Of a DNA stretch of 29,545 bases, positions 1 through 18,979 are shown piece after piece. The position numbers were made by a program, and so were the translations under genes. Below the pieces are notes generated by a model that was given only the letters and a program-made list of their open reading frames with translations, ran no database searches and was not told where the DNA came from. The stretch spans positions 1-29,545 of IMG/VR virus record IMGVR_UViG_3300047311_000682. One strand, written 5' to 3'. The first letter of the stretch is position 1; every line of letters begins with the position of its first letter. This DNA is from a virus.

Positions 1-99
1 GAGGATCACGTCGGGATCGGTGTGGCCTTCGTCGACCTTCGCGCTCGCCATGCGACGCAGGATCGCCTTGAGTTTGTCAGTGGCGTCGCAGCCGTTCAC
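1..99 (-). CDS. Start of an unknown gene, cut by the left window edge
   Basis: A GTG codon (complement of 97-99) overlaps the TGA stop of the giant polyvalent gene in a GTGA arrangement and opens a frame that stays open to position 1 (33 codons). The SD-like AAGGAG lies 8 nt upstream. The visible protein begins MNGCDATDKLKAILRRMASA and continues with charged residues (KVDEGHTDPDVIL). It looks soluble and partly helical. I do not recognise a family. The coupling suggests it is co-translated with the polyvalent protein, perhaps as another virion or ejection component. The start is supported by the SD and the overlap. An alternative is that it is a C-terminal piece of the polyvalent protein separated by a frame change; the good SD argues against that. 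Confidence 0.6.
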   Translation of the reverse strand, partial: MNGCDATDKLKAILRRMASAKVDEGHTDPDVIL

Positions 100-3000
100 A
101 GGTAGCACTCCTTGGTCATCATCTCTTCGCGCTTCAGTTTCTTGAAGTCCTCGAGCGCATCGGCGAATTTTTTCTTCGCGTTGTTGACCACCATCTCGGG
201 CTTCTCCTTGAGACCCGGCGATGCGAGTTTATCCTTGAGCCGCTTGCGCTCGTCGGCGTCCTTCTTGATCTCGGCGCGCTCGGTCTCGGAGAGGTCGCGA
301 CCGGCCTTGACCTTGCGCGCGGCGAGCAACCCGCCGTACGACTCATCCGAATTCACCAGCAGTCTGCGCGCGAGACCGGAATTCGACCACTCGGTTCCGG
401 CGTGGACGGCTGCCTTCTCGTTCGTGTCGCGCTCTGCCTCGTGGAGCTTCATCATCGCGAGCGCGACCTGCGTGGCGTCGTGGTCTTTCAGATCCATCGC
501 ATCGGACGCGCGCTTGGTCGCGTCGTCGTGCGCACGCACGATGCGCTGCCGGTCGACGGCGAGGATCGCCGCCTCGACGTCGCTGATGTTGCGCGGGGTA
601 TTTGCGACTTCGTTCGCGATCTCGCGCCCGCGGTTCGGGTTCTTGCGCAACTCCTCGTGCGCAGCGGCGTGGAGTTCCTCGCCGGTCTTGCCGCGGATCT
701 TCTCGATCATCTCCTTGCCGCGGGCCAAGCGCGCCGCCTCGGTGTCGACATTCGCAATCGACGACGCCTCGTGCTCCGCGGTCAGCCCCTGATGTGAAGT
801 CTGCCCCTTCTGCTCATCGGGAACGCGAACGCCTTCATCTTTGACGGTGCCTTCGCCGGTTGTTTCGTCGCCTTTGGTCTCAGCAGCGCGTGCTGTAGTT
901 TCGCCTTCACGAACGGGTGCATTGTCGCGCCCGGCATTTTCCCCGGCGACGCCGGTGATGCGTCCTGCACCAGACTCGGTGCGTTCGGTAGCCAGCCCAT
1001 GTCCCACCTCCGTTGTCTTCGCGCGCGTCGGCACCTTCGCGCCGAGCACGGTTGCCTGACCATCAGGCGTCTTGTAGCCATCGAAGCCGTGCGAGATAAC
1101 GAGCCTCTCGAACTCGTTCATTATGTGCGGCAGATCCACGGGCAACGAGTGCGCGTCGAGGTTGTCGCGCGCGATGTCGAACAGGCCGCGCGGATCTGCT
1201 TTCGCGTCGTAGAGATTGCGCAGCACGGTCTCGTGCTTGCCGCCGCCGCCCTCGGCCGACGTGAACTGCGTGCGCGAAGCGATGCCCTTCACCGCGTTCG
1301 GCAGATCCAGACGGCCATGCTCGTTCGCGGTGCGCTCCGGCAGCGCCCGGTCGGTGACCGCGTGCATCGCGACGGCGTCGGGTTGCTGGCCGCGGATGTT
1401 CGCGCGCGGCACGGCCGGATCCACCTTGCCGACCTGCGCCTGCTCGCGGCCGGTCGTGCGCGCCCACTCCTTGAACTGCGCCGGGGTGAACTGCTCGACC
1501 TGCCCCATGCGGTCCCAGCCCTTCGGGTATTCGGACAGGTACGCACGCTCGGCATCACGCTGATTCTTCGCGCCGACGACAACCTTGTGCTCGTCGAATC
1601 CACCGGCGGCGTTCTTCTGGTGGATCACGAACACCGGGCGCGATGGATCCGCGGCTTCGCCCGCGACCAGCACGTCCATGGATCCGCCGTCGCGGCCGGG
1701 CACGCCCTCGACGTAGCCGTAGGGGTGCTTCATCACGGTCGAGAAAGGCTTGCCCTCCTCGGTCGTGCCGGTGCGCGTCTGCCCCTTGTCGGTCTCGATG
1801 TGGAGGTTGCCGATCGAGGACTTGATCGTCCTGACCGGCTCGCCGTCTTCGGTCTTGTCGGAGTGCGGCGGAACATTTTCTTCCGCCGCGAGGCTCAACT
1901 CCGGTGCTTCGGTTACGCCTTCGGCTCGGCCTTTGTCCCAGCCGTAGCGTTTGGCGAAGTCTTGGTTGACGGCGTCAACGCGGGGACGGAGGTCTTTCTC
2001 AATCCAGTCTTGTATATCGGATCGTCCGGCCCAGCTACGTGGTCGAGCTTCTTCAATCGCTCGAGACGCCGCTTCGATTCTTCCTCGGTAATTTGCTGGT
2101 CCATTTGCTGCCTCGCTGCTGATGTATTCGCCGTCACTCTGGAAGCGAGTGTAGTCGGACACCTCATTGTGCCATGGTTGATCATGTATAGCCATCTGGA
2201 CGGCTGAATGAAAATCGTCATTCGCCTTCCTCGTGACCGACACGAGCTTGCCTTGGGTGAGACCCTTGGGAATCGCGGGGAAGTTGAGGACGCGCACGCC
2301 CTGCCCGTCGACAGTCGGGATCGGTGGTGCTTCGCTGTGCCCGAGGTGCTTGGCGAGGGCGGTGTAAAACGCCGCGTTTTCCTCCTCGGTCAGGTGCCGC
2401 CCGAGGTTGATCTCGGCCCCGTTCTGGACGTACTTCGAGCCGTCGTAGATCGGGTAGTGCCACGCCATCGCTTTCTGGTTCAGCAGTTGCCCGCGGATCG
2501 ACTGCGAGAGCTCGATCAGCCGACGCGAGTTCTCGCTGACCTTGCCGTCCTTCGTGTAGATCGGCTGCGCGTGCTGCGTGCCGACGGTCGACTTGCCTTC
2601 CCATCCGGAGAAGCCCTCGACGCCGGGACCAGCGAACGGGCCCACCTCGGTGTCGATTGCGTCGCGGCCATCCTCGTTCTTCAGCGCGTCCTGAATCGCG
2701 CGGTGATACTCGATCTTCTGCTCCATCGGCGCATCGTGGATCCCCGGCAGCACGCCAGACTCCACCGACGGGATCGACTCGTGGCTCAGTTGCGCGGCGC
2801 GATCGTTCAGCGCGTTGCCGAAATCGTACGACGCCGCGCGCGTGTCTTCGGCCGACACGTCGAGCGCCATCGCATGCTTGAGCCAGACCCCGCGATGCTT
2901 GCCTTCGTCGAGGACGTTGCGAACCTCCTCGCCTTTCGGGTTCGTGTCGTAGCGCATGTAGCCTTTCTTCGTCGACTCGGCTTCGGTGCGCTCCTTCACG

Positions 3001-6000
3001 CCCTTGTTTTCGGTGCGCGCTTTCATCGCGACCCAGATCGCGGCCTGCACTTCCTCGGGGCTCCAGCCCATCTCTTGCGCGACGCGGTTCACTTCGTTTT
3101 CGACGAAGCGGTAGGCCGCATCCGTTGGCGAGTCGGTGTGATATCCGGCTGCGCGCATCATCCACAGATCGATGGTCGCGCCCTGCTTCGCGTGCGACGC
3201 CGGATCCACATGGCGCATGAGGTTGTTGTAGAAGTTGTTGGTCTTCTCGCCGCCCTCGAACACGCCGTCGCCGTACAGCACGCGAGAGGCGTACGCATCC
3301 TGCACGCCGGTCTTCGCGTTGATCGGCTGGCCCGCCTTGTACTGCTCCCACGCATGCAGGGCCATCGTGGTGTTGGCGTCGACCTTCGCTTGCGGCGAGT
3401 AGATCGCGAGCACCTTGGCGAGCTTGCGCGCTTCCTCGACGCTGCCCGCGTGCTGCAGGATCCATGCGCCCGAATCCCTGTACCAGTACCTGCCGCTCTC
3501 GCCTTCTTGCGTCAGTTGGCGGAACAGTCGGCGCAGGCCACCGATCTTCGCGGGCGTGTTGTACTTCGCCGGTGCGCCGATGTATTGCCCGGCTCGAGCG
3601 CCGCCCTGATACCGCGCGTTGTCCGCAACTTCGCCGCCGCGGCCGAAGCCGCCAAGCTGCTCCGGCGAGGTTGTCCTCTCGGCCTTGCCCGCGGCTGCAG
3701 CGACCGCTTGCTCCTCCTCGTCGTCCGGAGCCTTGCGGAGTGATGGCGCGCCGACGCGACGCATCGTGCCCGATTTGATCCCGGCGTCGAACGCGTGCGT
3801 GTGCATCACCGCCGACAGCACCTGCCGGTACGCGTCGACATCTTTCACGTACCGATTGGTGCCGTAGTCGGAAACCTTTCCGAGGAACGTGTCGAGGTAC
3901 TTGCCGAAGGACGATGCGAGCTTGCCGAACGCGGTCGGGTTTTCCTTCGCCATGCGCTCCATGAATGCGCGATCGCCGAGCGCGTCGCCGTTGGTGTCGG
4001 CCGTCAATTCCTCGGCGTGTTTCTCCGGCCTGTAGCCGCGGCCTACCGCGCTCTGGCCGAACGCCTCGACGCCGCCCTGACGCTTGATCTCGTTCTCGAG
4101 GATCTGGTAGAGCGGCGGCGCTGTGCGCTTGAGTTGGTGCGTCCATTCGTGCGCCAAGGTGTGAACGATCGGATGCTGCGAACTCTCGTTGACGAAGAGA
4201 TGGCCGTTGTACATCGCGCCGTTGAAACGCACGCGGCCTTCCCAGCCCGGCGTGTTGTCGCGGATGACGTGAACTTGTGTACCTGTGAACTTCTCCACTT
4301 CGTTGATCGCGGTCTGCACTTCCGGCGGCAGGTGATCGCGGTGGATCTCCTCGAGGTCGATCTTCGCGCCGGTCGGATCCGGAGCGTGCTCGTTGAGCGC
4401 CGCTGAGAGTTTGTCGGTCTGCTCGGTCTTCGCCGACGGCAGATCCTTCGGGATCCCGGTGTCGCCCGCGGGTGCGCCCAGCGCCTGCTTCAACTCCGGC
4501 TCCTCGCCCTCGGGTGCCGCCAGACGCAGATCCGGAGCCTCGGTTTTCACCTCCGGCCCTTTTGTCAGTGCCTTCTCGGAAAGCTGAAACTCGGGACTCG
4601 TCGGCGGCGAGGGCCGATGCCCTTCGATCGTTTGCTCGCCCTCGCGGACCGGCGTCGGCGCTTCGCCGCCGGTGACCGTGCCTTCTGTCAGTTTTGGCGG
4701 CTCCGGCTTCGGCTTGGGTGGAACCCGCTTGGCCGTCTCCATGGCCGCGGCCAGCGTGGTCGGGATCGGCGGGCCTTGGCCGCGCGCAGCAGCCTCGCGC
4801 GCTGCGTCTTCGCTCGCTGCGATTGAGGCCGCGGTCTGGACGTCCCCAGACTGCCGCTCGTGCTCGATCTCAGCCTCTTGCCGTGCGCGGTCGGCCTCTG
4901 CCTGCGCGTGCGCCGCCTCGGTGGCCTGCACGTCGGTCACGCGCACCGCGGGCGCGCCCACCGGCGCTACAGGCGGCTGCAGGCGCTCCTTGGCGACCGC
5001 CTCGAGGCCCGTGGCAGGGATCGGCTCGCCCTCCGGCGCTGGCGGCACCTGTGCGCCGGGATGCTCGTCCGGCGGCAGCGGTGGCAGGACGTGGATCGCC
5101 GTGGTGTCGAGCGCGCCCGGCGAGCCGATGGGCGGCGGCGTGACGTTGAGCGGCTGGCCCGGCGCGCCGACGAGATCCTCGGCTGCCTGCAGCGTCGTCT
5201 GCCCTTCGCCCGGCGCTTGCTCTGCGGCGGTCGGTTCGGTGACCGCCTTCGCCGCCTTCCACTCTTGGTACGCGGCCTCGTCGCGCGTCTCGCCCTTGAC
5301 CGTGATGTTGTGCAGTTCGGCGGTCGCCCAGAGCCCTCCGGCCGCACCCTTGTCCTTCATCGTCTCGGCGACCCACGTCAGGCGCGACATGTTCTCCGGA
5401 TCGTGCTCGAGCGCCGACATCGCGTTCGCGAACTTCGGCAGCAGGATCTTCTGCTGCTCTTGGTGCATCTGGCCCATGGCCGCGCCGACGGCCATCGATG
5501 CGATGATGCTCGCCGGTGTGATCGGCTGGCCTGCTGCTGCCGACGCCGCGATGTCCTGCGCGGTGAACGCACTGCCACCGCTGATCGCCTTCTCCCACCA
5601 CGCGCCGCCGCGCGCCATCGGCATCGACATCTGCACCGTGCCTGTCGCGAGCTCCTCCGCGGTGCCGAGCGCGGTCGCCGCTGCCGACCCGCCCTTCTCC
5701 GCGATCTGCTGCCCGCGCTCGATTGCGCCCGGCAGGGAACCGACCGCACCGGCAGGCATCTGCTGCACCGTAGTCTCGACCGCCTGCTGCCAGACCTGCC
5801 GCCACAACGGCATGCTGAAGAGCTCTGTCGCTGGCGTCAGGAGCATCTCGGGGTTGTAGGTCGCGGCCATCGCAACGAGGCCGGGGATCATCTTCGCAAC
5901 CTTGTCGACGGCCTGCTCGCCGATGCCTACCGGGAGCGGCTTGTTCGCTTCGGCCATCGCGACCATGTCGTCTTGCGGCTTGACGCCGTACTTGAACAGG

Positions 6001-6920
6001 AAATCGCGCGCAGCCTCCGCATGGTCGCCGAAGATCGACAGCACCCCGGCGGCGGTGAGCGCCGGGAGTTTCGCGAATTCCTCGGTGCCCTCGAGGACGT
6101 CGTAGGCAACGATCTGGCCGTAGCGCCCCGCCGTCGTTCGACCGAACGCCGCGAGCTCCTCTTTTGAGACTTTCCCGGTGCCGAAATCGGGTGCGGTCTC
6201 GGACGCGTAGCCCGGCTCGACCGCAGAGAGTTCTGCTTGCGGTGTCGGCGGTGCGGGCGGGTTGTAGTTCTTGTCGAACGCGGTCGCCTTCGGCGCGCCC
6301 ATGAGATCCGAAAAAATGCTGTCCGACATGTACGGGATGAAGTGCGCGTCGTTGGCGACGACGTTCTTCGCGTACGCGTGCGCGTCATCGGCACCGAGCA
6401 CCGGGCTGGCCGCGTCGTACGCCTGCTGGTAGCGATCGCTCGCCATCAGCTTCTCGTGCGGGAGCGCATCGATGATGTCGCCGGGCTTCTGCACGCCGGT
6501 GGCGAGCTCGCCGGTTGGCGTGCCCATGGTGCCGAGGACGTGGTCGATTTTCGCGAGGCGCTGCGCCGCGAGCTTCGCCTGCGCTCTCGTCTCGCCGTCG
6601 GTGTTCGGATCCGCGCCGTCGAAGATCTGCTGCTGCAGCGCCGTGCGCTTGTCGAGGAGATCCTTCGCCGTGATCGGATCCGTCTCAGGCATTGAGACGG
6701 GCTTGCCGTCGAGCGAGTTGTTGTACGCCCGCGAGGCGTGATCTTTCAGGTGGCCCCAGTAGTCGCCCCACCAGTCGTCGGGTGCGGGCTGCGCAGGTGG
6801 CGGCGTTGGTGCCGCGGGCGAGTCGGCCAACAGCCCGGTGTTTGGATCGAACTGGAAGCCCTGCTGACCGCTGTCAGCCAGCAGGCCAGTTTCGGGATCG
6901 AACTGGAATTCGCCTGCCAT
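96..6920 (-). CDS. Giant polyvalent virion protein (2274 aa): zincin metallopeptidase, pyrophosphatase-like and other domains
   Basis: Large phage polyvalent proteins are string-of-domain proteins thought to be packaged and ejected into the host with the DNA. Seen here: two copies of FQFDP(E/N)TGLLADS at residues 5-17 and 22-34; a helical region with hydrophobic stretches at about 330-490; a Pro/Ala/Glu-rich linker at about 560-840; a zincin motif HEWTH at 924-928, with a possible third zinc ligand in AEELTAD about 50 residues later; a conserved-looking segment at about 1090-1350 (YSPQAKVDANTTMALHAW); an inorganic-pyrophosphatase-like (InPase) polyvalent domain at about 1690-1832 (HPYGYV at 1732, then GFDEHKV and FKEW); a possible ADP-ribosyltransferase-like segment at about 1850-1965 ending near SHGFDGYKTPDG; and a charged helical tail from about 2050. 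The start is ATG after a weak SD, 4 nt past the upstream stop. Domain names are from memory of these families; the protease and pyrophosphatase-like calls are the firmest. Confidence 0.85.
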   Translation of the reverse strand: MAGEFQFDPETGLLADSGQQGFQFDPNTGLLADSPAAPTPPPAQPAPDDWWGDYWGHLKDHASRAYNNSLDGKPVSMPETDPITAKDLLDKRTALQQQIFDGADPNTDGETRAQAKLAAQRLAKIDHVLGTMGTPTGELATGVQKPGDIIDALPHEKLMASDRYQQAYDAASPVLGADDAHAYAKNVVANDAHFIPYMSDSIFSDLMGAPKATAFDKNYNPPAPPTPQAELSAVEPGYASETAPDFGTGKVSKEELAAFGRTTAGRYGQIVAYDVLEGTEEFAKLPALTAAGVLSIFGDHAEAARDFLFKYGVKPQDDMVAMAEANKPLPVGIGEQAVDKVAKMIPGLVAMAATYNPEMLLTPATELFSMPLWRQVWQQAVETTVQQMPAGAVGSLPGAIERGQQIAEKGGSAAATALGTAEELATGTVQMSMPMARGGAWWEKAISGGSAFTAQDIAASAAAGQPITPASIIASMAVGAAMGQMHQEQQKILLPKFANAMSALEHDPENMSRLTWVAETMKDKGAAGGLWATAELHNITVKGETRDEAAYQEWKAAKAVTEPTAAEQAPGEGQTTLQAAEDLVGAPGQPLNVTPPPIGSPGALDTTAIHVLPPLPPDEHPGAQVPPAPEGEPIPATGLEAVAKERLQPPVAPVGAPAVRVTDVQATEAAHAQAEADRARQEAEIEHERQSGDVQTAASIAASEDAAREAAARGQGPPIPTTLAAAMETAKRVPPKPKPEPPKLTEGTVTGGEAPTPVREGEQTIEGHRPSPPTSPEFQLSEKALTKGPEVKTEAPDLRLAAPEGEEPELKQALGAPAGDTGIPKDLPSAKTEQTDKLSAALNEHAPDPTGAKIDLEEIHRDHLPPEVQTAINEVEKFTGTQVHVIRDNTPGWEGRVRFNGAMYNGHLFVNESSQHPIVHTLAHEWTHQLKRTAPPLYQILENEIKRQGGVEAFGQSAVGRGYRPEKHAEELTADTNGDALGDRAFMERMAKENPTAFGKLASSFGKYLDTFLGKVSDYGTNRYVKDVDAYRQVLSAVMHTHAFDAGIKSGTMRRVGAPSLRKAPDDEEEQAVAAAAGKAERTTSPEQLGGFGRGGEVADNARYQGGARAGQYIGAPAKYNTPAKIGGLRRLFRQLTQEGESGRYWYRDSGAWILQHAGSVEEARKLAKVLAIYSPQAKVDANTTMALHAWEQYKAGQPINAKTGVQDAYASRVLYGDGVFEGGEKTNNFYNNLMRHVDPASHAKQGATIDLWMMRAAGYHTDSPTDAAYRFVENEVNRVAQEMGWSPEEVQAAIWVAMKARTENKGVKERTEAESTKKGYMRYDTNPKGEEVRNVLDEGKHRGVWLKHAMALDVSAEDTRAASYDFGNALNDRAAQLSHESIPSVESGVLPGIHDAPMEQKIEYHRAIQDALKNEDGRDAIDTEVGPFAGPGVEGFSGWEGKSTVGTQHAQPIYTKDGKVSENSRRLIELSQSIRGQLLNQKAMAWHYPIYDGSKYVQNGAEINLGRHLTEEENAAFYTALAKHLGHSEAPPIPTVDGQGVRVLNFPAIPKGLTQGKLVSVTRKANDDFHSAVQMAIHDQPWHNEVSDYTRFQSDGEYISSEAANGPANYRGRIEAASRAIEEARPRSWAGRSDIQDWIEKDLRPRVDAVNQDFAKRYGWDKGRAEGVTEAPELSLAAEENVPPHSDKTEDGEPVRTIKSSIGNLHIETDKGQTRTGTTEEGKPFSTVMKHPYGYVEGVPGRDGGSMDVLVAGEAADPSRPVFVIHQKNAAGGFDEHKVVVGAKNQRDAERAYLSEYPKGWDRMGQVEQFTPAQFKEWARTTGREQAQVGKVDPAVPRANIRGQQPDAVAMHAVTDRALPERTANEHGRLDLPNAVKGIASRTQFTSAEGGGGKHETVLRNLYDAKADPRGLFDIARDNLDAHSLPVDLPHIMNEFERLVISHGFDGYKTPDGQATVLGAKVPTRAKTTEVGHGLATERTESGAGRITGVAGENAGRDNAPVREGETTARAAETKGDETTGEGTVKDEGVRVPDEQKGQTSHQGLTAEHEASSIANVDTEAARLARGKEMIEKIRGKTGEELHAAAHEELRKNPNRGREIANEVANTPRNISDVEAAILAVDRQRIVRAHDDATKRASDAMDLKDHDATQVALAMMKLHEAERDTNEKAAVHAGTEWSNSGLARRLLVNSDESYGGLLAARKVKAGRDLSETERAEIKKDADERKRLKDKLASPGLKEKPEMVVNNAKKKFADALEDFKKLKREEMMTKECYL
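6819..6908 (-). repeat. Duplicated 13-residue peptide at the N-terminus of the giant protein
   Basis: Two near-identical peptides, FQFDPETGLLADS (residues 5-17) and FQFDPNTGLLADS (22-34), are separated by GQQG and differ at one residue. The DNA of the two copies is similar but not identical, so the peptide seems to be what is conserved. A short duplicated N-terminal motif could be a docking or packaging tag for the virion; that is inference. Confidence 0.8.
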
Positions 6921-6924
6921 TCAT

Positions 6925-8355
6925 TCACGCCACTTGCTGCTGCGAGTTCTGGTCGAGGAAGTAGTCGATGAAGCCGCCGTTATCTTGGTCAGGATACTGG
7001 TTGTCGAGTTGGATCTCCGCGGCGCGGCGCATCTTGTCGGCGACCGGTCCCTGCTTGGCGTCGGCGAGGCGAGAGAGCGTGGCGAGCACACCCTGACCGT
7101 CCGGCGACTGCGGCAACTCCTGCGCGGTCTGCTCCCACTTCGAGGTTTGGTCGTCCGGCGGCGCAGCAGCGGCGTCAGGCGCTGCTATAGCAGTGCCGGA
7201 AGGTGCTATAGCAGCATCTGGAGGCGGACTTGTGGTAGAGGCGACCTGCGCCGCGTTCGGATCCATGGCCGTCGGCGTCGGCGGCGCGTTCGGATCCGCC
7301 ACGCCGGTCGGTGACACGAAGCTTGTGCTCGTCGCGCCCGGCGCGGCTGGTGCAGGTGCAGGTGCTGCGGGCGCGGGCTTGGCGAGCAAGGGAGGCGGGG
7401 CCGGGGCAGCATCCGCTGCCGCGGGTGCCGGTGTCGGCGTCGTGACCGCCTTCTTGATCATGTCCGGCGTCAGGCTTGGATCCTGCGCCGCCTTCGCGAT
7501 CTCCTCGCGCGACTTGCCCGGCGTGGCCTGTGCTTGCCTGTCCGCCCACGCTCTCCGGTCCGGCGAGAGCGTCTCGAACGGGTCGGGTGGCTTCGGCCCG
7601 TAGCCGAGATTTGATGTGATCTTGTCGCGGATTTCCTTCTGCGTGTCGACGACGCCGGAGTACGCCGAGGTCGCCGCTTCGAGCTTGTCCTTCGCCGCTT
7701 TCTGCAGCGGATCACTGGCGTCGGCGCGACCGCCTGCGGTGAGGTTTTCGTACTCCTTGCGCGCGTTGTCCACCGCGATCTTGTACGGGTTCACCTGAGA
7801 GTCGAGAACGCTGATCATTTCCTTCGCGTCACCGCGCTTGGCGGCGGCATCGAGCGAGTCCTGTTGCTTCGCACGCAGCTTCGCGGATTCCTCCCGATCC
7901 TTCGCCATGGCCTCGCGCTCTGTCGTGAGGCTCGCTGTCGCTGCCGCTTGATTCGCCGCTTCGGCTCCGCGGATCCTCAACTCGCCCGCTTGAAACCTCC
8001 CGGTCTGCTCCATTTGTGCGATTTCGCGGTTGTAGTTCAGCGCAGCTTCTTGTACGCGCAGCAGATTTGACTTGTCAGAACGCTCCGTCTCGCCGGTCTG
8101 TCGCGTCGCCTCGCGCTCGGCCTCTGCCGTGTTGCGCCAGCGTTCGATGTTCTCGCGCGATGCACGCTCGGCGAGCGCACGCGCATCTTCACGCGAGCCA
8201 CGCTTCTCCTCGAGCTCGCTTGCTGCACGCGACTTCGCCCACTCGCCCAGCCCTTCGCCGAGACCGAGGAACATCGCCGACAGACCGCCCGGCTGCTGAC
8301 CGACGACTCCACCGCGACCGCCGCCACCGAATGACTTGAAGGAACCGAATGCCAT
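6925..8355 (-). CDS. Putative internal virion protein, coiled-coil N-half and Ala/Pro-rich C-half (476 aa)
   Basis: I do not recognise a named family. Residues 1-30 are glycine-rich (FGGGGRGG). Residues about 35-260 are highly charged and alanine-rich with long predicted helix or coiled coil (ASELEEKRGSREDARALAER and similar). Residues about 300-410 are a Pro/Ala low-complexity linker, and the last 60 residues are a compact acidic segment ending in YFLDQNSQQQVA. A GTG (8356-8358) directly precedes the ATG; I chose the ATG at 8355 because GGAGG lies 6 nt before it and it overlaps the previous stop as TGATG. Its position just before the giant protein, among other long helical proteins, suggests an ejection or internal-core role. 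An unusual inverted repeat with two ATA codons lies inside the linker (7181-7215). Confidence 0.75.
   Translation of the reverse strand: MAFGSFKSFGGGGRGGVVGQQPGGLSAMFLGLGEGLGEWAKSRAASELEEKRGSREDARALAERASRENIERWRNTAEAEREATRQTGETERSDKSNLLRVQEAALNYNREIAQMEQTGRFQAGELRIRGAEAANQAAATASLTTEREAMAKDREESAKLRAKQQDSLDAAAKRGDAKEMISVLDSQVNPYKIAVDNARKEYENLTAGGRADASDPLQKAAKDKLEAATSAYSGVVDTQKEIRDKITSNLGYGPKPPDPFETLSPDRRAWADRQAQATPGKSREEIAKAAQDPSLTPDMIKKAVTTPTPAPAAADAAPAPPPLLAKPAPAAPAPAPAAPGATSTSFVSPTGVADPNAPPTPTAMDPNAAQVASTTSPPPDAAIAPSGTAIAAPDAAAAPPDDQTSKWEQTAQELPQSPDGQGVLATLSRLADAKQGPVADKMRRAAEIQLDNQYPDQDNGGFIDYFLDQNSQQQVA
7181..7215. repeat. 12-bp perfect inverted repeat, each arm containing a palindrome
   Basis: Arms 7181-7192 (gctgctatagca) and 7204-7215 (tgctatagcagc) are perfect reverse complements, separated by 11 bp. 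Each arm also contains the palindrome tgctatagca, and the two palindrome centres are 21 bp apart, about two helical turns. The site is AT-rich against a GC-rich gene and forces two ATA isoleucine codons. It could be a protein-binding site or an mRNA hairpin; function is unknown. Confidence 0.6.
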
Positions 8356-9380
8356 CACTGACCTCCCGCCGCTGCGGCGGCTTGCGGCGGCGCGCCCTGA
8401 TCAGGCGGTGGTGCCGCGCCTTGGTCCGGCGGTGGCGCACCCTGCGCGCCCTGATCGGGCGGCGGACCTTGGTCGCTGCCGTCGGTGGGAACGAGTTGCG
8501 GTCGACCGGCTGCCGCGAAGTCGGCGATCGAGCTCGGCATCGGCCGACCCTTGATCTGCGCGTCGCCCTTCGCGGCCTTCGACAGGAACCCTGACAACTG
8601 CGCGGGCGTGAACTGCTTCGAAGGATCCCAGTTGTCGAGCTCGCCGCTCTCGCCCTCGCGCTGGATCTGTGCGAGGTAGTACTGCTGCGCTTCCTGCTGA
8701 TTCGCCTGCCCGGTGTCGATCAGGTTCTGGCCGAAGAATTTGCACGCGACGAGCTTCGCCATGCCGAGCAGGTGCTGCTCCTCCACCGAGCCGTCCGGCG
8801 GCGGGTTCTTGATCACCTTGGCGGCGACGCCGACCTGATACAGGTCAGACATGATCTCGTCGGCACCGTGGTAGAGCACGTCGGGCGTGTACGGGTAGCC
8901 CTGACGCTTGGCGTTCATGTACATGATCCAGCACACCTGCGCGGTCGTGCGGCCGACCGCATCGGCTGCCGACATGCCCTTGACGTTGAGGTGATCGATG
9001 ATCACGTCGCGCGGCGCTTTTCCGTTCGGCCGGATGCCGCCCTTCTTGTCCTTCGGCACGCGCGCGTCGTGGATGAAGAGCTTCGCGCGCGTCACGAAAT
9101 CCTCGTACTGCTTCTGCTCTTCCGGCGTGACCTGCGTGTCGTCGGCAGCCTCGGGCTGCTCGCTCATCGGGTGATCGCCGGGCGGGCCCGCGGTCTGCGC
9201 GCCCGACGGGATGAACGACTCGCCGCCGGTGAACGAATTCGGATCCGCGGGCGGTGCGGCCCCAGCGTCAGGCGCGCCAGCATCCGGCGCTGCGGCTGCG
9301 GCATCAGGCGGTGCGGCTCCGGCGTCCGGTGGTGGCGCGCCAGCATCCGGCGGCAGTGCTTGATCAGGCGTTGCTTGCAT
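8355..9380 (-). CDS. Putative virion protein with Pro/Asp/Gly/Ala repeat tails (341 aa)
   Basis: The protein has a globular core flanked by low-complexity arms. Residues 1-50 are PPDAGA-type repeats, residues about 75-290 form the folded core, and the last 45 residues are PPPDQGA repeats. The core has helical, aromatic-rich stretches (CWIMYMNAKRQGYPYTPD and LVACKFFGQNLIDTGQANQQ) and no catalytic motif I recognise. The start is ATG at 9380 with CGAGGAA upstream. It overlaps the stop of the preceding gene by 17 nt and its own stop overlaps the next start, so it is translationally coupled on both sides. The core lies between the membrane-segment protein and the coiled-coil protein, which suggests an ejection-complex or internal virion component. 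That role is inferred from position only. Confidence 0.75.
   Translation of the reverse strand: MQATPDQALPPDAGAPPPDAGAAPPDAAAAAPDAGAPDAGAAPPADPNSFTGGESFIPSGAQTAGPPGDHPMSEQPEAADDTQVTPEEQKQYEDFVTRAKLFIHDARVPKDKKGGIRPNGKAPRDVIIDHLNVKGMSAADAVGRTTAQVCWIMYMNAKRQGYPYTPDVLYHGADEIMSDLYQVGVAAKVIKNPPPDGSVEEQHLLGMAKLVACKFFGQNLIDTGQANQQEAQQYYLAQIQREGESGELDNWDPSKQFTPAQLSGFLSKAAKGDAQIKGRPMPSSIADFAAAGRPQLVPTDGSDQGPPPDQGAQGAPPPDQGAAPPPDQGAPPQAAAAAGGQ
8370..8475 (-). repeat. PPPDQGA tandem peptide repeats
   Basis: The C-terminus of the 341-aa protein reads as repeated (P)PPDQGA(x) units, about four copies with imperfect DNA repetition. Similar PDQG units occur in the 173-aa proline-rich protein near 19080-19225. 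Such tracts are usually flexible linkers. Confidence 0.7.
9235..9370 (-). repeat. PPDAGA-type tandem peptide repeats
   Basis: The N-terminus of the 341-aa protein has repeats of (A)PPDAGA and APDAGA. In the DNA, segments such as gcgccagcatccggcg recur. Expansion and contraction by slippage or recombination is plausible here. Confidence 0.7.
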
Positions 9381-10482
9381 TGCGGTTCCTCGGGTCGAGG
9401 CGCGCCATCGTCTGCTGGATGAAATCAGCGTTCGCCGCGCCTGCTCTCTGCAGCGAGTCTTCCTGCGTCTGCGTCGCCTGCTGCGCGGTCGCCGCGCCGG
9501 TGCCTGCCGTCGGCAGGAACGAGGATCCTGTTTGCGCCGACGCCGCGGGCGAGGGCTGCTGCGGTTGCGCCTGCGACGTGTCGCCACCGGCAGCGAGCGC
9601 CGGGGTCGGTGCGGGCGCTGCGCCCGTGAGCGGTGTCGACGCGGAGGCTTCGGCGTCGCCGCCCTCGCCAGAGGAGGTCGACGTCGCCGTCTTCACCGGC
9701 GCAGCCTGCGCGTTCGCGTACGTCTGGCCGAGGTCGACGCCCTTGCCCTTCTCGTCCATGCCGAAGAACGCGCCGCCCGGCCACAAGCCTTGCTGCGCTT
9801 TCGTCGGTCCCGGCGCGAGCAGGCCCGAGATGCCCTTGAACACGGTCGCGCCGAACATCGCTTTGTCCGACGAGCTCATGCCGCTCCAGAAATTCTTCGC
9901 GGTGTTGAGGAAGCCGCCCGCCTCGGCGGGGCTGTTGGTGATCGCTCCTGTCGCCGCCGCGTTGAGGACCGACGGCGCGGTGTCCGCGAGCATCACGCCC
10001 GCGCCGGGAGCCAACGTGCTCGCGCCACCCGCAGCGGCTTCTCCTGCGCCCCAAGTGGAAAGGCCCGCGGTGCCGGTTCCTTCAGCGCCCAGACCGCCGA
10101 GCGGAGCCCCGACCGAGACGGCCGAAGAGAGCCCGGTCTCAGCCGCGATGGGCGCTTCAGCGCCGACCGCGAGCGCGGTCGTGCCCGCAGCCGCAGCACC
10201 TGCAGCACCTACAGCGTTGCCGAAAATGCCGTACCCGGCCGCGACGTTCGCCGCGCCTTCAGCACCACCGAAACCGATCGCCGTCGCCGCGCTCGAGAAA
10301 ATTCCGGTCGCACCGAATCCCGGCATCGCTGCCGCGAAGCTTGCCGTCGCGGGCATGGCCGCGAGCGCGATGCCCGCCGTGAAGTAGATCGCCGCCGCGA
10401 TCAGGATCGGCTTCCAGTACTTCTTGACGAAGCCGCCGACGGCCTTGAAGACCTTCTTCACGCCTTTGACTAAGCCGCCCAT
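9364..10482 (-). CDS. Putative membrane-active virion or ejection protein with one transmembrane stretch (372 aa)
   Basis: The basic N-terminus (MGGLVKGVKKVFKAVGGFVKKYWK) is followed by one hydrophobic segment at about residues 25-45 (PILIAAAIYFTAGIALAAM). Residues about 50-190 are a glycine/alanine-rich, weakly hydrophobic stretch of the kind seen in membrane-inserting proteins. After about residue 270 a Pro/Ala/Ser/Gln-rich linker leads to a short helical end (DFIQQTMARLDPRNRN). This architecture resembles phage proteins that help the genome cross the host envelope, but no specific family was recognised. The start at 10482 has a strong SD (GAGGAG) and overlaps the acetyltransferase stop by 13 nt; the longer in-frame extension is noise. 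A lysis or holin role is less likely given the length and the virion context. Confidence 0.75.
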   Translation of the reverse strand: MGGLVKGVKKVFKAVGGFVKKYWKPILIAAAIYFTAGIALAAMPATASFAAAMPGFGATGIFSSAATAIGFGGAEGAANVAAGYGIFGNAVGAAGAAAAGTTALAVGAEAPIAAETGLSSAVSVGAPLGGLGAEGTGTAGLSTWGAGEAAAGGASTLAPGAGVMLADTAPSVLNAAATGAITNSPAEAGGFLNTAKNFWSGMSSSDKAMFGATVFKGISGLLAPGPTKAQQGLWPGGAFFGMDEKGKGVDLGQTYANAQAAPVKTATSTSSGEGGDAEASASTPLTGAAPAPTPALAAGGDTSQAQPQQPSPAASAQTGSSFLPTAGTGAATAQQATQTQEDSLQRAGAANADFIQQTMARLDPRNRNASNA

Positions 10483-10943
10483 TTCACTCTCCTCACCCTC
10501 GTGCCGGGATCCATCGAGATCACGAGTCCGCGCTCGACGAAACCGGACTTCGCCATGAGGGCCATCGCACTGCGCGCGTTGTGGAATCGCGACGTGAACG
10601 ACACGAGGAACTCCTTCGCTCCATGGATCGCGACCCACTCGGATCCGGCTTGAACGAGCTTGCGGCCGAGGCCCGGCTGCACGCAGAACAGGCCATCGTC
10701 GAGCGCGTACTTTTCGGTGGAGCTCCACCAGTACGGCACCAGCACGATGATCAGGAAGCCGACAATTTTCCCTTTGTATACCGCGACGCCGAGCCACTCG
10801 TTCTTCGAGCGGATCGCGCGCAACAGCCGGTCGACGCATGCCTTGTACGAGATCGTCGTGTGCTTGTACGCGCTGCGTCCGACCAGCACCGTGCCGAGCG
10901 CGATGATCGCGTCGATGTCGTCGAAGGTGGCGCGGCGGATCAT
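10470..10943 (-). CDS. GNAT-family N-acetyltransferase-like protein (157 aa)
   Basis: The size and pattern match a single GNAT (Gcn5-related N-acetyltransferase) domain, which transfers an acetyl group from acetyl-CoA to an amine. It opens with IRRATFDDIDAIIALG, typical of the first strand and helix. Strands follow in WLGVAVYKGKIVGFLIIVLVP. The acetyl-CoA pyrophosphate loop appears as VQPGLGRKLVQ, near residues 88-98, a variant of the usual Q/R-x-x-G-x-G/A. The late part ...NARSAMALMAKSGFVERG resembles the usual final helix and strand. The ATG overlaps the previous stop as ATGA and has GGGAGG upstream. The substrate is unknown. It lies among virion genes, so it may modify a phage structural protein or be packaged; both are inference. 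Confidence 0.75.
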   Translation of the reverse strand: MIRRATFDDIDAIIALGTVLVGRSAYKHTTISYKACVDRLLRAIRSKNEWLGVAVYKGKIVGFLIIVLVPYWWSSTEKYALDDGLFCVQPGLGRKLVQAGSEWVAIHGAKEFLVSFTSRFHNARSAMALMAKSGFVERGLVISMDPGTRVRRVKWAA

Positions 10944-12712
10944 GGCACGAACCTCCCGGTGCCCGTTGGCTGCGCCGTCTGATTCTGCTCGCCGACGTTG
11001 CTCATCGCGCCGCCGATCTCCGGTGCCGGGCTGATGTCGTAGCCGGGGTAGACCATGTAGTTGCCGTAGACCCCGTACGGGTTGCTCGCCGTTGCCCCGG
11101 CCGGTGCGCCGGGCAGCGGGTTGTTCGGATCGATTGCGCCCGCGAGCGTGCCGTCCTGCGCGCCGTGCGTGATCGTGTCCCAGCTTGCGTCCTTCAGCGC
11201 CTGATCGGTCTTGTGCCAACTGGTGGCGGTCTCGACGGCGTTCGCCTGCTGCTGCGGTGTCAGGCCCGGCATCGTGCTGATCGCCGTCAGGTTCGCCTCG
11301 AGTTGGTTCAGGCCCGTCGACATGTCCGACTGCCGCGCCAGCGTCGCCTGCTTGACGAACGTGTCGGCGTTGATCGCGATCGTCGCGCCGGTCTGCGCAC
11401 CGATCCTCTGGAGCTCGCCCGCGGTTTGCTCCTGTCCCAGCGACCACGCCGACTTGAAGTTGAGGTCGATCGCGTCGAGCGTGGTCTTGCGCTGCAGATC
11501 CGCTTCCGACAGCGACGTTGCCGCAGCGAGCTTCGCGTTCTCCATCGACGCCTCGGCCGAGATCGACGACGAGGAGATCTGCGCGCCCGCCATCTCGCCC
11601 GCCGCCTCGACCTGCGCCGCCGCCGACACGCGCGTGGATTCCAGTTGCCCGGCCACCTGCCGATCGACCGAATCGAGGTTGCCCTTGATCTGCTCCGACT
11701 GCAGCACCTGCGACTGCTTGTAGTTCTGGTCGGACAGCAGCGCCGTGTGCATGAATTGCTGCGTCGCGAGGCTGAACTGATTCTTCATCGTCGCGTTGAA
11801 TTCGGCGCTCTTCGCGAACGTCGCGGCGTCGGCGCTGGCGACGTTGAACGCCAGCCCGATGACCTTGTCGTAGGCCGCGGTCTCGGCCATCAGGCTGTTG
11901 CCGCCACCGGCGGCTGCACTGGCGCGCTTCACCGCCGAGGCGAGTGACTGGTAGACCGGATTGGTCTGCAGGTCGGTCGTCAGTTGCTTCATCTGCCCTT
12001 GCACGGTCTGCTCGGGCGTGACGTCCCACGGGGTGGCCGTCGGCTCGTCGTCCGGCACCTTCGGGATGAAACTCTTGTCCGGAGCCTGATAATCTTCGGC
12101 CTTCGCCGGGGGCGGCGCGGTGTAGCCAGCCGCGAACCCAGTTGACGAACTCGAGCTCGCGGTGGATGTGCCCAGCGCCGCACCCTTGCCCGCCGCTTCC
12201 GGCGAATTCGGATGCGCCGCGATGTACGCCTGCCGCTGGTCGGCCGACATCGAGGCCCACAGGTTCTGGCTGACCGGCGGATCCGAGAATCCTTGGGCCG
12301 CTGAAGCGGCGGCAGCCTTCTTCCTGTCGTACGCCTTCTGGTCGGCCGGAGACAGCGCCTTGTACTGCGCGTTGGTCAGCCGTTGGAACGTCTGCGTCGG
12401 TGCGCCACCGGCGACCGCGGCTCGAGTTGCCGCAACTCCCGTTGCCCCTGTGGCCCCCGTAGCGGGCGCAGGAGCCGCGCCGGTCGCACCCGGTGCCGTC
12501 GTAGCGGCCCCGGTGGCCCCCGTAGCGCCTGCAGCCGCTGCGGCGTCAGTCGTGCCCGTTGCGCCGGTCGTCGTCGCCGCGGTGGTGGTGCTGGGCATCG
12601 CGCCGGTGTCGCCCGGCTGCCACGGGCGTGGCGGCGCAGGCAGTGCCAGCGCCGACGGGTCCATCGTGGCTCCCGCCTCGTTGAGGAAATCAGCCGCGGT
12701 TTTGTCGACCAT
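10940..12712 (-). CDS. Putative internal virion protein with Gly-Ala-Thr triplet repeats and long helical core (590 aa)
   Basis: No family was recognised. Residues about 40-105 are low-complexity with GATGATG triplets interspersed with Ala/Pro, collagen-like in spacing but lacking regular proline. Residues about 110-170 contain two short similar helical motifs (LTNAQYKALSPADQKAYDRK and LWASMSADQRQAYIAAHP). Residues about 230-520 form a long Ala/Gln/Ser-rich helical region with few prolines, likely coiled coil, as expected of an internal-core or ejection protein. The C-terminus is tyrosine- and glycine-rich (NPYGVYGNYMVYPGYDISP). The chosen ATG (12712) lies 6 nt after the previous stop but has a weak SD. 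The ATG at 12664 (residue 17) has a better GGGAG and is a real alternative. The stop overlaps the acetyltransferase start. Confidence 0.75.
   Translation of the reverse strand: MVDKTAADFLNEAGATMDPSALALPAPPRPWQPGDTGAMPSTTTAATTTGATGTTDAAAAAGATGATGAATTAPGATGAAPAPATGATGATGVAATRAAVAGGAPTQTFQRLTNAQYKALSPADQKAYDRKKAAAASAAQGFSDPPVSQNLWASMSADQRQAYIAAHPNSPEAAGKGAALGTSTASSSSSTGFAAGYTAPPPAKAEDYQAPDKSFIPKVPDDEPTATPWDVTPEQTVQGQMKQLTTDLQTNPVYQSLASAVKRASAAAGGGNSLMAETAAYDKVIGLAFNVASADAATFAKSAEFNATMKNQFSLATQQFMHTALLSDQNYKQSQVLQSEQIKGNLDSVDRQVAGQLESTRVSAAAQVEAAGEMAGAQISSSSISAEASMENAKLAAATSLSEADLQRKTTLDAIDLNFKSAWSLGQEQTAGELQRIGAQTGATIAINADTFVKQATLARQSDMSTGLNQLEANLTAISTMPGLTPQQQANAVETATSWHKTDQALKDASWDTITHGAQDGTLAGAIDPNNPLPGAPAGATASNPYGVYGNYMVYPGYDISPAPEIGGAMSNVGEQNQTAQPTGTGRFVP
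12395..12592 (-). repeat. Collagen-like GAT/GAA triplet repeat tract
   Basis: Within the 590-aa protein the DNA encodes repeated glycine-alanine-threonine triplets (GATGATG, APGATGAAP). Short units such as gtggcccccgtagc recur. Gly-X-Y-like stretches occur in phage structural proteins, but the lack of Pro at fixed positions makes a true collagen helix doubtful. Confidence 0.65.
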
Positions 12713-15506: not shown

Positions 15507-18101
15507 CTACCTCCAGCCCTGCCGCGTGCGCGTGGCGTAGTTCAACTTTACCGCCTGCAGCGTGTGCGGGAATGCGATGTCGGACTCGCCGAACGCGAGG
15601 ATCGAGATGCCCACGCCCTGCCCGTGCAGCATCTTGCGGATCACGTTCTTGCCCGCGCCGCCGTAGAAGCCGGTGCCGTACAGCGCCATCTGGTCGAAGA
15701 ACGACAGCGTCATCGCGCGCGTCACCACTTCCGGTTTTTCCGGCGAGCGGTAGCCGTAGCCGTCGTCGTACTCCGCGGCGATGGACAGGTTCGTGAACGC
15801 ATCGGCACCGATCACGTCGAAGTCGCCGCGCCGGTAGTACTTCATCTTGTCGATGTTTTGCTGGCCGCAGTAGAACTGGTTCTGCAGCGAGAACGCGATC
15901 GGCGTGCCGAGGCAGCCGAAGGATCCGCCGACGTCGTCCTCGTACAGGTAGCCGTCGTCGCCGCAAAAGTATATTTTTTCGCCCGGCGCAAGGTTGTAGT
16001 TGCCGTTCGTGACCGTGCTCGCGGCCGACCAGAAGTTGCGCGCGCTGTTGACGGCGGCGCTCTGCACGGTGCCGACGACGACATTGTCGGCGTAGACGTT
16101 GGATCCGACCGGCCACTTCGCCGGGTCGATCGTCTGGTTGACCGTGTGGATCGACAGGCTCTGCGCGCCGACCGGTCGCACGACATGGTTGCGCACGACG
16201 AACGAGGCGGTGCTGTCGAAGTTGGTGTGCAGGCTGCCGCTGTAGTCGGTGCCCGCCGTCGTCTCCAAGATCACGATGTTCGAGCCGAGGTCCATGTCGC
16301 ACTTGCCGATGCCCTTGAGCTCCTTGCCGACGATGCAGAACGAGAAGAACGTGCCGCCGTCGAAGTACAGCCGGTACAGGCTGTGGTCGCGCTGTTGCGT
16401 CGCCTCGAGCGGGCCGTCGCCGGTCGACATGTACGACTTGAGCAGCGTGTTGATGTCCTGCGAAAGGCTGATGCCGCCGAAGTTGCCGAACTCGGTCTGC
16501 TGGTCGTAGAAGTTCACGCCCTCGTCGGAGAGGAGCGCGACGCCGCCGATCGGCACGGCGGTGAAGGCGTACGCGCCCGCCTCGGTGTTGAGGTCGCGCA
16601 ACTGGTACTGCTCGGTGACGTCGCCGTACAGCATCCGCGTGCGGTTGCGCGTCGTGATGAGCACCGTGTTGTTGATGTTCTCGATGATGTTGGTAATGTC
16701 CTCGCCGAGGTAGCGTTGGTTGGCTCCCTCGACGAACTGCCAATCCGCCGGGGTCTGGTAGCCGGAGTACGACAGGTTGCCGCCGGGGTAGCCGACGAAC
16801 AACTGGTCGTGCGCGATCGCGATGATGTTCGGCGTGTCCAGCACCGGCGCGTTGTTGAACGTCGCGACGTCGAGACCTTGGCCGGTGATCAGCGGCGTGA
16901 AGACGGCCGTCGACCACACCGCGTTCGCGGGCAGCCAGATCTCGAACGCCGTGTCGAGTCCACTGATGCCGTACATGCGCGTGTCGTACGCATTGCCGCC
17001 GAAGTTCCAGCGGCGGAAGCGGTAGTTGCCGCCCGCCGGGAGGCGGTTCGCCCTGACCACAGGCCCGGCCGCGGGTGTCGTCGCGACCGTGACGCCGCCG
17101 ACTTGGATCGCGACGCCGTTGCCGACCGCGCCGCCGGTGATGCCCGCCGGGCCGGTCGAGAAGTAGCCGCACGCATCGCCGCCGCCGACCGTGCCAAATT
17201 GCGTGTTGATCCGCTTGGCGATCATGCTCGTCGCGCCGATCGTGACGGTCGCCCCTTCGACGAGGGCCGGGTTGTTGTTGTTGACAAAGTATACAATGCT
17301 ACCGAGCGCGAGCTGGTTCCAGCCGATCAGCGGCGAACCCGTGCCATCGCCCGGCCCCTTCGCCACGAACAGGCCCGCGTCGGCCACCGGATTGATGAGG
17401 CCGCGGATGCCGAACACACGACCGTTGAGGTCGAACCCGCCCAGCGCACGGCCGATGCCCTGAAAATTCCCGATGCCTTGGATCAGATCCCGTGCGACCT
17501 TGCGCGCGAGGCGGATGTAGAGCGCCGCCCTGCTGACGTCCCCGAAGAAGGCCGCAGGTCCGGTGACGGTGCCGAAGTTTTGCGCGATCGACGCCGGGCC
17601 GGTCCACAACGTCGTGCCGACGGGGAACATGACGACGTCGAGAAACTTCTCGCGGTAGTCGCGTCCGGAGACGAGGTTGTGGTCGTAGCTGCTGGTGATC
17701 AGCGAGCGGATCGTGTGCGTGAGCACGATGTACTTCTGCCCGCCGATCGTTTCCCAGCCGAGGAAGAACGGGCCCACGTCGCGCAAGCCGTCGGCCATGT
17801 GGACATTCGCGCCGATGGAGCCCGGCACGTTCGCCGGATTCGTGATCGTCACCGGGTACAGGATGTATACAAATGCACTCGGCTGCCGGTGGCCGTCGAC
17901 CGGCTCGCAGCCGCCCTTGCTGCGGTAGCCGCCCGCGTAGTTCGGTTCGTAGTTCTTGCAGAAGAGCAGTTTCGCCGGATCGCCGATCGCGGCGACCTGC
18001 TCGATCGACAACCCACCGCCGAGCGCGAATCGCTCCGAGGCGTTGTTGTCTTCCTGCGGATATCCGATGGCGGCGCGGAACTGGGTGAGAGACTTGCTCA
18101 C
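15507..18101 (-). CDS. Tail nozzle-like protein (tail tubular protein B type), 864 aa
   Basis: In short-tailed phages the nozzle forms the distal tube below the adaptor ring and is large and beta-rich. Here the sequence is long and beta-rich throughout. It has a propeller-like middle (IIAIAHDQLFVGYPGGNLSY, then FVEGANQRYLGEDITNIIEN and TVLITTRNRTRMLYGD) and a later RDHSLYRLYFDGG that recalls nozzle proteins of the T7 gp12 type. It directly follows the adaptor gene, as expected. The start is GTG at 18101: it overlaps the adaptor stop (GTGA), has GGAG 5 nt before, and the protein then reads SKSLTQFRAAIGYPQEDN; the longer open frame upstream lies inside the adaptor gene. The nozzle call rests on size, position and pattern rather than a signature. 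Confidence 0.7.
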   Translation of the reverse strand: MSKSLTQFRAAIGYPQEDNNASERFALGGGLSIEQVAAIGDPAKLLFCKNYEPNYAGGYRSKGGCEPVDGHRQPSAFVYILYPVTITNPANVPGSIGANVHMADGLRDVGPFFLGWETIGGQKYIVLTHTIRSLITSSYDHNLVSGRDYREKFLDVVMFPVGTTLWTGPASIAQNFGTVTGPAAFFGDVSRAALYIRLARKVARDLIQGIGNFQGIGRALGGFDLNGRVFGIRGLINPVADAGLFVAKGPGDGTGSPLIGWNQLALGSIVYFVNNNNPALVEGATVTIGATSMIAKRINTQFGTVGGGDACGYFSTGPAGITGGAVGNGVAIQVGGVTVATTPAAGPVVRANRLPAGGNYRFRRWNFGGNAYDTRMYGISGLDTAFEIWLPANAVWSTAVFTPLITGQGLDVATFNNAPVLDTPNIIAIAHDQLFVGYPGGNLSYSGYQTPADWQFVEGANQRYLGEDITNIIENINNTVLITTRNRTRMLYGDVTEQYQLRDLNTEAGAYAFTAVPIGGVALLSDEGVNFYDQQTEFGNFGGISLSQDINTLLKSYMSTGDGPLEATQQRDHSLYRLYFDGGTFFSFCIVGKELKGIGKCDMDLGSNIVILETTAGTDYSGSLHTNFDSTASFVVRNHVVRPVGAQSLSIHTVNQTIDPAKWPVGSNVYADNVVVGTVQSAAVNSARNFWSAASTVTNGNYNLAPGEKIYFCGDDGYLYEDDVGGSFGCLGTPIAFSLQNQFYCGQQNIDKMKYYRRGDFDVIGADAFTNLSIAAEYDDGYGYRSPEKPEVVTRAMTLSFFDQMALYGTGFYGGAGKNVIRKMLHGQGVGISILAFGESDIAFPHTLQAVKLNYATRTRQGWR

Positions 18102-18979
18102 ACCGTCTCCACCGTCATCTCGATGTCGTTCTCCGAGACGCGATCGTGCTCCATGCCCGGCAACTGGTCCGCGCGGAGCTCCTCGAGGAGATCCTGATAC
18201 TCCGCGAGCGCGGCCTGCATGATCTCGGTCGCGCCCTCGGCCGTCGCGTACAGCACCTGCGCGCGCGCGATGATGATGCGGCACGACTCGAGCCGCTGCG
18301 GTGCGGTCGGCGTCGGCAACACGCCCTTCGTCGGCACGATGCCGTCGTTCGATGGGTACGGCTGATTCTGCAGCCGCGGCGGCACCATGTTCGCGCCAGA
18401 GTCGTTGAGCGCGACGGCGAGCGTGAGCGGCGAGACATCGCCGTCGTCCTTCAGCCGCATCGGCCGACCCCAGCACTCGTAGCGGTACGGCGTCGCCGAG
18501 GCCATCAGCGTCGACACGATGATCTGACCGCCGGGCGACTGCGAGAAGTACGGCGGCGAGTTGCTCACCGACTTCGGCCCGCGGTTCTGGTTCATGTACT
18601 CGAACTTGCGCCAGTCCTGAAAGACCGGCCGGTTCGCGATCGAGGCGTCGCTGTAGTTGAAGACGAGCGATTTCCGGTCGATCTTGCGGAACTGGTACAC
18701 CGACATGTTCGCGCTCAACGGCGGGTTGCCGCTGATGTTGCCGTAGGTCGGCGAAGCGAGCGTGTCGTAGCCCGGCTGGAGCGTCCCGGCGAATTGCCGC
18801 CAGAGGAATTTCCAGTTGTGGTGAAGCGACTGGATCTCGTAATCCGCGTCTGCGATGAAGCCACAGATGCGGATCGACTCGAGGCTGTTTGTTCCTGAAG
18901 AGACGCTCGCCAGCGTGTTCCCGCCGTTGATTCCCAACTCGACGATGAAAGCATTGACGAGGTCGAGGTAGGTTTGCAC
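18098..18979 (-). CDS. Head-to-tail adaptor (connector) protein, 293 aa
   Basis: The N-terminus MQTYLDLVNAFIVELGINGG, followed by IRICGFIADADYEIQSLHHN and WKFLW, is the helical pattern of podovirus adaptor proteins (SU10 adaptor or P22 gp4-like), which bind beneath the portal and carry the nozzle. The middle (about 60-190) is a beta-rich insertion (VYQFRKIDRKSLVFNYSDAS, RYECWGRP). The C-terminal part returns to helix (ESCRIIIARAQVLYATAEGA, then AALAEYQDLLEELRAD), typical of these proteins. The start is GTG with GAGGTT upstream. The stop overlaps the nozzle-like gene start (GTGA), and adaptor-then-nozzle is a common order. The family assignment is from recall of the pattern. Confidence 0.7.
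   Translation of the reverse strand: MQTYLDLVNAFIVELGINGGNTLASVSSGTNSLESIRICGFIADADYEIQSLHHNWKFLWRQFAGTLQPGYDTLASPTYGNISGNPPLSANMSVYQFRKIDRKSLVFNYSDASIANRPVFQDWRKFEYMNQNRGPKSVSNSPPYFSQSPGGQIIVSTLMASATPYRYECWGRPMRLKDDGDVSPLTLAVALNDSGANMVPPRLQNQPYPSNDGIVPTKGVLPTPTAPQRLESCRIIIARAQVLYATAEGATEIMQAALAEYQDLLEELRADQLPGMEHDRVSENDIEMTVETV

Follow-up and report, generated by a model that had tools for sequence, protein, structure and literature searches.

A giant phage polyvalent protein encoded by IMG/VR record IMGVR_UViG_3300047311_000682 and its recurrent core of zincin, DUF7178 and domain U

Introduction

IMG/VR virus record IMGVR_UViG_3300047311_000682 was analyzed over its full length of 29,545 nucleotides (positions 1 to 29,545, here called the window) and carries on its minus strand the gene of a giant protein, designated P0001. 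An initial annotation, made from the sequence alone, described the product as a polyvalent protein. This description stands, because a zincin-like metallopeptidase domain, a DUF7178 domain and an InPase-family domain, that is several unrelated activities or families, are found in one chain of 2274 amino acids (aa), and because the gene lies among the virion genes of a phage with portal and terminase. The constant core of the protein class to which P0001 belongs is formed by the zincin, DUF7178 and an unnamed companion domain, here called U, and not by the InPase-family domain, which is weakened in P0001; this core appears to be undescribed. The initial annotation was largely correct in what it observed and partly mistaken in the functions that it stressed.

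Features of the giant gene

P0001 is encoded by a single open reading frame (ORF) with an ATG start, which runs from 6920 to 96 on the minus strand. The reality of this ORF, reported at 96-6920 in the initial annotation, is borne out by copies with 100% identity in two other IMG/VR contigs and by a homologue of 2507 aa encoded on the 61.6-kb contig G003; another contig holds only the first 157 residues of P0001. Because of a short direct repeat near both of its ends, contig G003 is probably complete. The two proteins align in three blocks, which correspond to residues 67-832 (45% identity), 820-1065 (55%) and 1670-2274 (54%) of P0001, with no BLAST alignment to the G003 homologue for residues 1066-1669.

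The N-terminal region (residues ~1-820; 4461..6920, minus strand) is alanine-rich and covers the first of these blocks. No family could be assigned to it, and it contains no hydrophobic stretch of transmembrane strength (Kyte-Doolittle > 1.6). The C-terminal region (residues ~2050-2274; 99..773, minus strand) is helical and charged and is conserved in G003 as part of the third block.

DUF7178 and domain U

Residues 1090-1350, initially listed as unassigned, hold the best-conserved part of the protein class. Pfam DUF7178 (PF23802) matches residues 1138-1301 with E=2.3e-14 and 54.2 bits, compared with a curated cut-off of 27. The domain spans residues ~1120-1320 (2961..3563, minus strand) and is described here as HhH-GPD DNA-glycosylase-like on the basis of AlphaFold (AF2) models, Foldseek and hhalign. 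A profile search of the PDB with the DUF7178 alignments delivered only spurious matches to repeat proteins and designed proteins. Alignment A2, all of whose 33 members give the DUF7178 Pfam match, contains 14 invariant positions, all inside DUF7178, among them Trp-Tyr, Ser, Asn, Lys1226, Phe, Asp1251, Trp, Met and Arg. Lys1226 of the helix-hairpin-helix (3243..3245, minus strand) and Asp1251 (3168..3170, minus strand), both invariant in A2 and in alignment A4, are proposed as the catalytic lysine and the catalytic aspartate.

The pattern of DUF7178, a helix, a hairpin and a helix opening with Lys-Thr, after which comes a further helix with Asp at its start, is the arrangement of HhH-GPD glycosylases. 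The spacing between Lys and Asp is 25 in P0001 and 23 to 26 in the giant proteins, which have a short insert; in many solo copies of DUF7178 it is 18, equal to that in endonuclease III sequences. An hhalign comparison of DUF7178 with HhH-GPD placed the Lys and Asp motifs in register, with 0 of 60 and 1 of 60 shuffled controls reaching the score. With the second of two AF2 models, Foldseek ranks 1 to 5 were taken by four human OGG1 entries and AGOG (best OGG1 probability 0.91, E 0.12), and endonuclease III (EndoIII-3) followed at rank 20. Several of the solo copies were labelled glycosylase, N-glycosylase or N-glycosylase/DNA lyase by their depositors. One solo copy, in Tunturiibacter phage Tunturi_3 (L023:3902-4498), is labelled 'portal protein', probably a mislabel, and adjoins a small ORF named ATP-dependent DNA ligase.

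Several results weigh against a glycosylase. The hhalign probability of the comparison with HhH-GPD is at most 5%, the Foldseek E-values are weak (0.12 to 0.7 for OGG1 and AGOG, 0.12 to 1.9 over the whole range), and the first AF2 model, which is larger and better, had no glycosylase among its best 50 Foldseek matches. The members of the DUF7178 alignment gave no Pfam HhH-GPD match. The weak scores, together with the listing of DUF7178 in Pfam as a family of unknown function, would suit a helical DNA-binding or structural domain which merely resembles the HhH-GPD fold and holds or pulls the genome during ejection. This explanation is rated as rather unlikely, since the invariant polar residues (Trp-Tyr, Ser, Asn, Lys, Asp, Trp, Arg) look catalytic among proteins that are only ~30-45% identical, and since many phages that are not related to each other have solo copies of ~180-200 aa which are not part of a virion protein. 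From sequence patterns and models, DUF7178 probably belongs to the HhH-GPD superfamily, and the chances for and against an actual glycosylase activity are about evenly divided. As a glycosylase of the HhH-GPD type, DUF7178 together with U would act on DNA, possibly also as an apurinic/apyrimidinic (AP) lyase via Lys1226 and Asp1251, and the target might be damaged or modified bases either in the incoming phage DNA or in the host DNA.

Domain U, the conserved companion of DUF7178, comprises residues ~1430-1660 (1941..2633, minus strand) and is predicted by AF2 with high confidence as an alpha/beta domain. No consistent Pfam match to U was found across the 33 members of A2, and no Pfam LPD model matches the DUF7178 and U core. 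An identity of U as a phage S-adenosylmethionine lyase-like domain was considered and rejected, as the best PDB match by Foldseek probability (6zm9, probability 0.30, E 1.3) is not significant; it is retained as an antirestriction lead only.

Distribution of the core

Relatives were gathered by scanning viral contigs with a nine-member alignment, which delivered ~45 giant ORFs with DUF7178, 30-62% identical to the query. Nearly all of them then carry U, and in most an HExxH motif lies 120-480 residues upstream of the core. The accessory domains vary: among 17 giants, Pfam detected the InPase domain in three and LPD38 in nine, and LPD38, LPD37 and ART-PolyVal are carried by relatives. The initial annotation suggested that the domain combination may be new. 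For the zincin and the InPase domain this does not hold, both being known domains of polyvalent proteins (PMC5512222); the novelty lies in the combination of zincin, DUF7178 and U, which had been missed.

The G003 homologue has a diverged relative of DUF7178 in the corresponding position (hhalign probability 96%, E=3.4e-9), and this diverged type was also found in Limnohabitans phage DC33 and in a podovirus from Manatee Spring. The record of phage DC33 (L145, PQ492659.1) is assigned to the lineage Inoviridae; its size of 39 kb and a polyvalent-type protein of 3125 aa suggest a podovirus that was given an incorrect lineage. Genome contigs bearing the core include one of Halomonas sp. NO4 (L140), which is named as an isolate and not as a metagenome-assembled genome. 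The giant on this contig and that of G013 (L120, IMG/VR) have the same open-frame length (3606) and probably represent the same prophage. No relatives were found on plasmids at E<=1e-3, and tblastn searches of deposited phage genomes did not reveal the DUF7178 and U core, the DUF7178 part alone giving matches. BFVD contains many structural relatives in large proteins of uncultured phages, some of them named polyvalent.

Zincin domain

The zincin-like metallopeptidase domain covers residues ~835-1048 (3777..4418, minus strand), as seen from alignment A3 and the AF2 topology. The zinc-protease motif HEWTH at residues 924-928 (4137..4151, minus strand), recognized in the initial annotation, was confirmed as invariant: His924, Glu925, His928 and, further downstream, Glu971 are kept in 17 of 17 aligned full giant phage proteins, so that HEWTH is not a chance occurrence. 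Glu971 (4008..4010, minus strand), located within EELTAD on a predicted downstream helix, is the probable third zinc ligand. Two of the 17 proteins have HExxxH in place of HExxH, a variant described for polyvalent proteins (PMC5512222). In the AlphaFold model of residues 830-1335, a helix and three strands are followed by the HExxH helix and then by the helix bearing Glu971, the same zincin core topology as given by Iyer et al. in 2017 (PMC5512222). Sequence profiles of the domain matched the zinc hydrolases 9urd and 3c37 weakly (E 0.03 and 0.08), and Pfam Peptidase_M91 gave E=0.026, under the cut-off. Against a zincin speaks the lack of any solved zincin among the best 50 Foldseek matches of the 830-1335 model. 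On the strength of motif, conservation and predicted topology, the zincin assignment is well supported.

The zincin, located just upstream of the core, most probably cuts its own polypeptide, during assembly or after entry into the host, and would thereby free DUF7178 and U. The location of the zincin beside a linker that immediately precedes the core and is predicted to be disordered favors this self-processing over cleavage of host proteins. Both roles are considered possible by Iyer et al. (PMC5512222), and the retention of the zincin while the accessory domains change would also be expected of an injected effector with host proteins as its substrates. Such an effector is possible, with odds clearly below even, as the position of the zincin, nearly always directly upstream of the DNA-acting core and followed in P0001 by the linker predicted to be disordered, fits the release of a domain, and as processing of P1 DdrB has been reported (PMC5512222).

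Accessory domains

The InPase-family domain comprises residues ~1696-1830 (1431..1835, minus strand). Pfam InPase (PF18823, type I polyvalent clade) matches residues 1705-1820 with E=9.3e-32, and the closest solved relative, the domain in 9b41, occurs as a fusion with the portal protein of a phage. The InPase-like domain of the initial annotation is thus upheld as regards family membership; a complete set of active-site acidic residues is not present. The active-site stretch reads DGGSMD in P0001 and G003, in contrast to D-x-D-x-x-D in 11 other aligned sequences: D1744 and D1749 are retained, and the middle, second active-site Asp is replaced by Gly1746 (1683..1685, minus strand). The FDEHK motif is retained. 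Because of the loss of the middle Asp, InPase catalysis is doubtful, and the activity of the domain may have been lost or changed.

Residues ~1840-1975 (996..1403, minus strand) represent, by comparison with the other giants, a shortened copy of a mobile domain of no assigned family, here called ADP-ribosyltransferase (ART)-like. They match the C-terminal half of this domain, whose placement in the other giants is variable, either downstream of U or in the interval from zincin to DUF7178. Stretches common to the intact copies are H, YGxGLRG, R..FY and PExGVG; most of these are absent from the copies of P0001 and G003, and YGxGLRG, FY and PExGVG are missing in P0001. No Pfam match at E<=10 was obtained for the segment of P0001 or for three intact relatives, and no PDB entry was matched by a profile built from five intact copies. 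With the motifs of its own relatives lost and no Pfam or PDB match, the ART identity that the initial annotation had proposed for residues 1850-1965 was rejected as unproven.

The InPase-family domain and the ART-like segment may be regarded as mobile add-ons which apparently have decayed here. On the view of the initial annotation, P0001 may be an injected takeover protein, working chiefly by proteolysis, pyrophosphate hydrolysis and ADP-ribosylation. The strong InPase family match and the FDEHK motif speak for such a protein. It is nevertheless very improbable, given Gly1746 in both P0001 and G003, an ART-like segment devoid of its relatives' motifs and of any ART match, and the presence of the InPase domain in only three of the 17 giants.

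Gene neighborhood and packaging

All genes described in the window lie on the minus strand, in the order terminase, portal, capsid, adaptor/nozzle-type proteins, low-complexity and hydrophobic proteins, and then the giant gene. The large terminase gene (28851..29545; phrog_2, E=7e-17) is truncated by the contig end. The portal protein (24338..26803) is of the SU10 type (Pfam SU10_portal, E=7.5e-33), and the major capsid protein is encoded at 20646..21686 (phrog_1357, E=5e-18). Tail adaptor/nozzle-type proteins (15507..18979), identified by tblastn to relatives, are conserved in several phages with giant proteins, and the copy of one relative matches a Vibrio phage 'head-closure protein'. The proteins encoded at 6925..12712 are, according to their translations, of low complexity, coiled or hydrophobic, are presumed to be internal virion proteins and are partly syntenic in G003. 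Directly downstream of the terminase lies an HNH endonuclease gene (28426-28839; phrog_1872, E=1.6e-29), possibly of a homing endonuclease.

G003 is syntenic with the window; it also encodes a collagen-like (Gly-X-Y) repeat protein of ~1140 aa (L013/G003 C1:24372-27794, minus strand), probably a tail fibre. In the more distant phage G015, homologues of terminase, portal, capsid and tail proteins occur in identical order, with a giant gene of 4180 aa further downstream. Small proteins whose hydrophobic N-termini are rich in glycine or in lysine/valine are often encoded before the giant gene in other relatives; one such protein had no sequence match in deposited phages.

The initial annotation saw the giant protein as closing a block of such proteins. 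Low-complexity, hydrophobic and virion genes do precede it; it is not strictly the end of the block, since in a longer contig a gene of 708 aa, kept in G003, overlaps the stop codon of P0001. That this gene represents the split-off LPD38 tail of longer giants was considered and found unsupported by Pfam and hhalign. Shortly after the giant gene of one relative lies a gene of 1277 aa with a Zeta toxin domain (L106:12122-15952, E=1.2e-14), another possible injected effector. The gene after the giant of a further relative (L110:3020-6490, minus strand) carries ART-PolyVal (E=7e-11) and weakly matches LPD38, so that polyvalent domains may be divided between two genes in some of these phages.

In podovirus JC1, the virion module ends with the gene of a giant of 4515 aa, which was detected with 51 unique peptides in CsCl-purified virions (PMC9144972). 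Judged from its domain content, the gene order and the JC1 case, P0001 is probably packed in the virion and ejected; packaging appears likely because of the virion gene context and this analogue. It would then be packed with the internal proteins and enter the host with the DNA. It counts against this reading that the JC1 giant is a positional analogue and not a DUF7178 homologue. Adjacency to virion genes does not prove packaging, and P0001 might be a late protein that stays unpackaged and acts inside the cell that makes it, for instance by aiding assembly or by protecting the genome. The place of the giant gene at the end of the internal-protein block, the detection of the JC1 giant in virions (PMC9144972) and the occurrence of the InPase domain in fusion with portal proteins make such a late protein improbable.

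Proposed role

The interpretation that we favor, with somewhat better than even chances, sees P0001 as a polyvalent protein carried in the virion of an uncultured, short-tailed phage whose portal is of the SU10 type; the zincin of P0001 would cleave its own chain and free the glycosylase-like DUF7178 and U for action on DNA. A broader version is distinctly tentative and judged to be rather improbable: that giant ejection proteins of a widespread class, most of it uncultured, bring an active glycosylase or AP lyase into the host at infection, made up of DUF7178 and U and freed by the protein's own zincin.

No paper naming a role for DUF7178 was found in the open literature, and the family now gains a testable function. 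The analysis further delineates a class of giant phage proteins which is held together by constant zincin, DUF7178 and U, with the remaining domains gained and lost around them. If an injected base-excision enzyme is indeed involved, DNA-lesion chemistry would be added to the known early takeover activities of phages, the virion-delivered enzyme could serve as a weapon or as a repair tool, and the solo DUF7178 proteins encoded by Mycobacterium and Gordonia phages would be convenient for laboratory work.

Comparison with known systems

P0001 resembles the phage polyvalent proteins (PMC5512222) in its very large size, its multidomain structure, its zincin and InPase-family domains and its virion gene context. 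DUF7178 and U are not described there under the name of a glycosylase, a word that occurs 0 times in PMC5512222. With the HhH-GPD glycosylases OGG1, AGOG and endonuclease III, DUF7178 shares the Lys of the helix-hairpin-helix followed by Asp, at equal spacing in many solo copies, and one of the two AF2 models gave a weak helical fold match to them; by inspection it is the more compact fold when set beside endonuclease III, and it differs in being embedded, together with U, in a protein of the ejection type. The solo DUF7178 proteins, such as Mycobacterium phage Kumao gp115, Roseobacter phage SIO1 gp9 and that of Synechococcus phage S-CBP42, belong to the same family, but are single-domain proteins of 180-200 aa outside giant virion proteins.

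JC1 gp69, the DarB-like giant of the Bcep22-like podoviruses (PMC9144972), is likewise a giant at the end of the virion module, and the InPase domain of P0001 matches a PHROG named DarB-like antirestriction; gp69 differs in being described as DarB-like with a helicase-type region (PMC9144972). Kuravirus SU10 (PMC9509320) shares the portal type, and the giant gene follows the head and tail genes as gp20-24 do there; the ejection proteins of SU10 were identified by mass spectrometry, whereas the likeness to P0001 is one of gene placement and portal type. In comparison with all these systems, P0001 is a protein of a known kind, a phage polyvalent protein, built around a constant core that appears to be undescribed.

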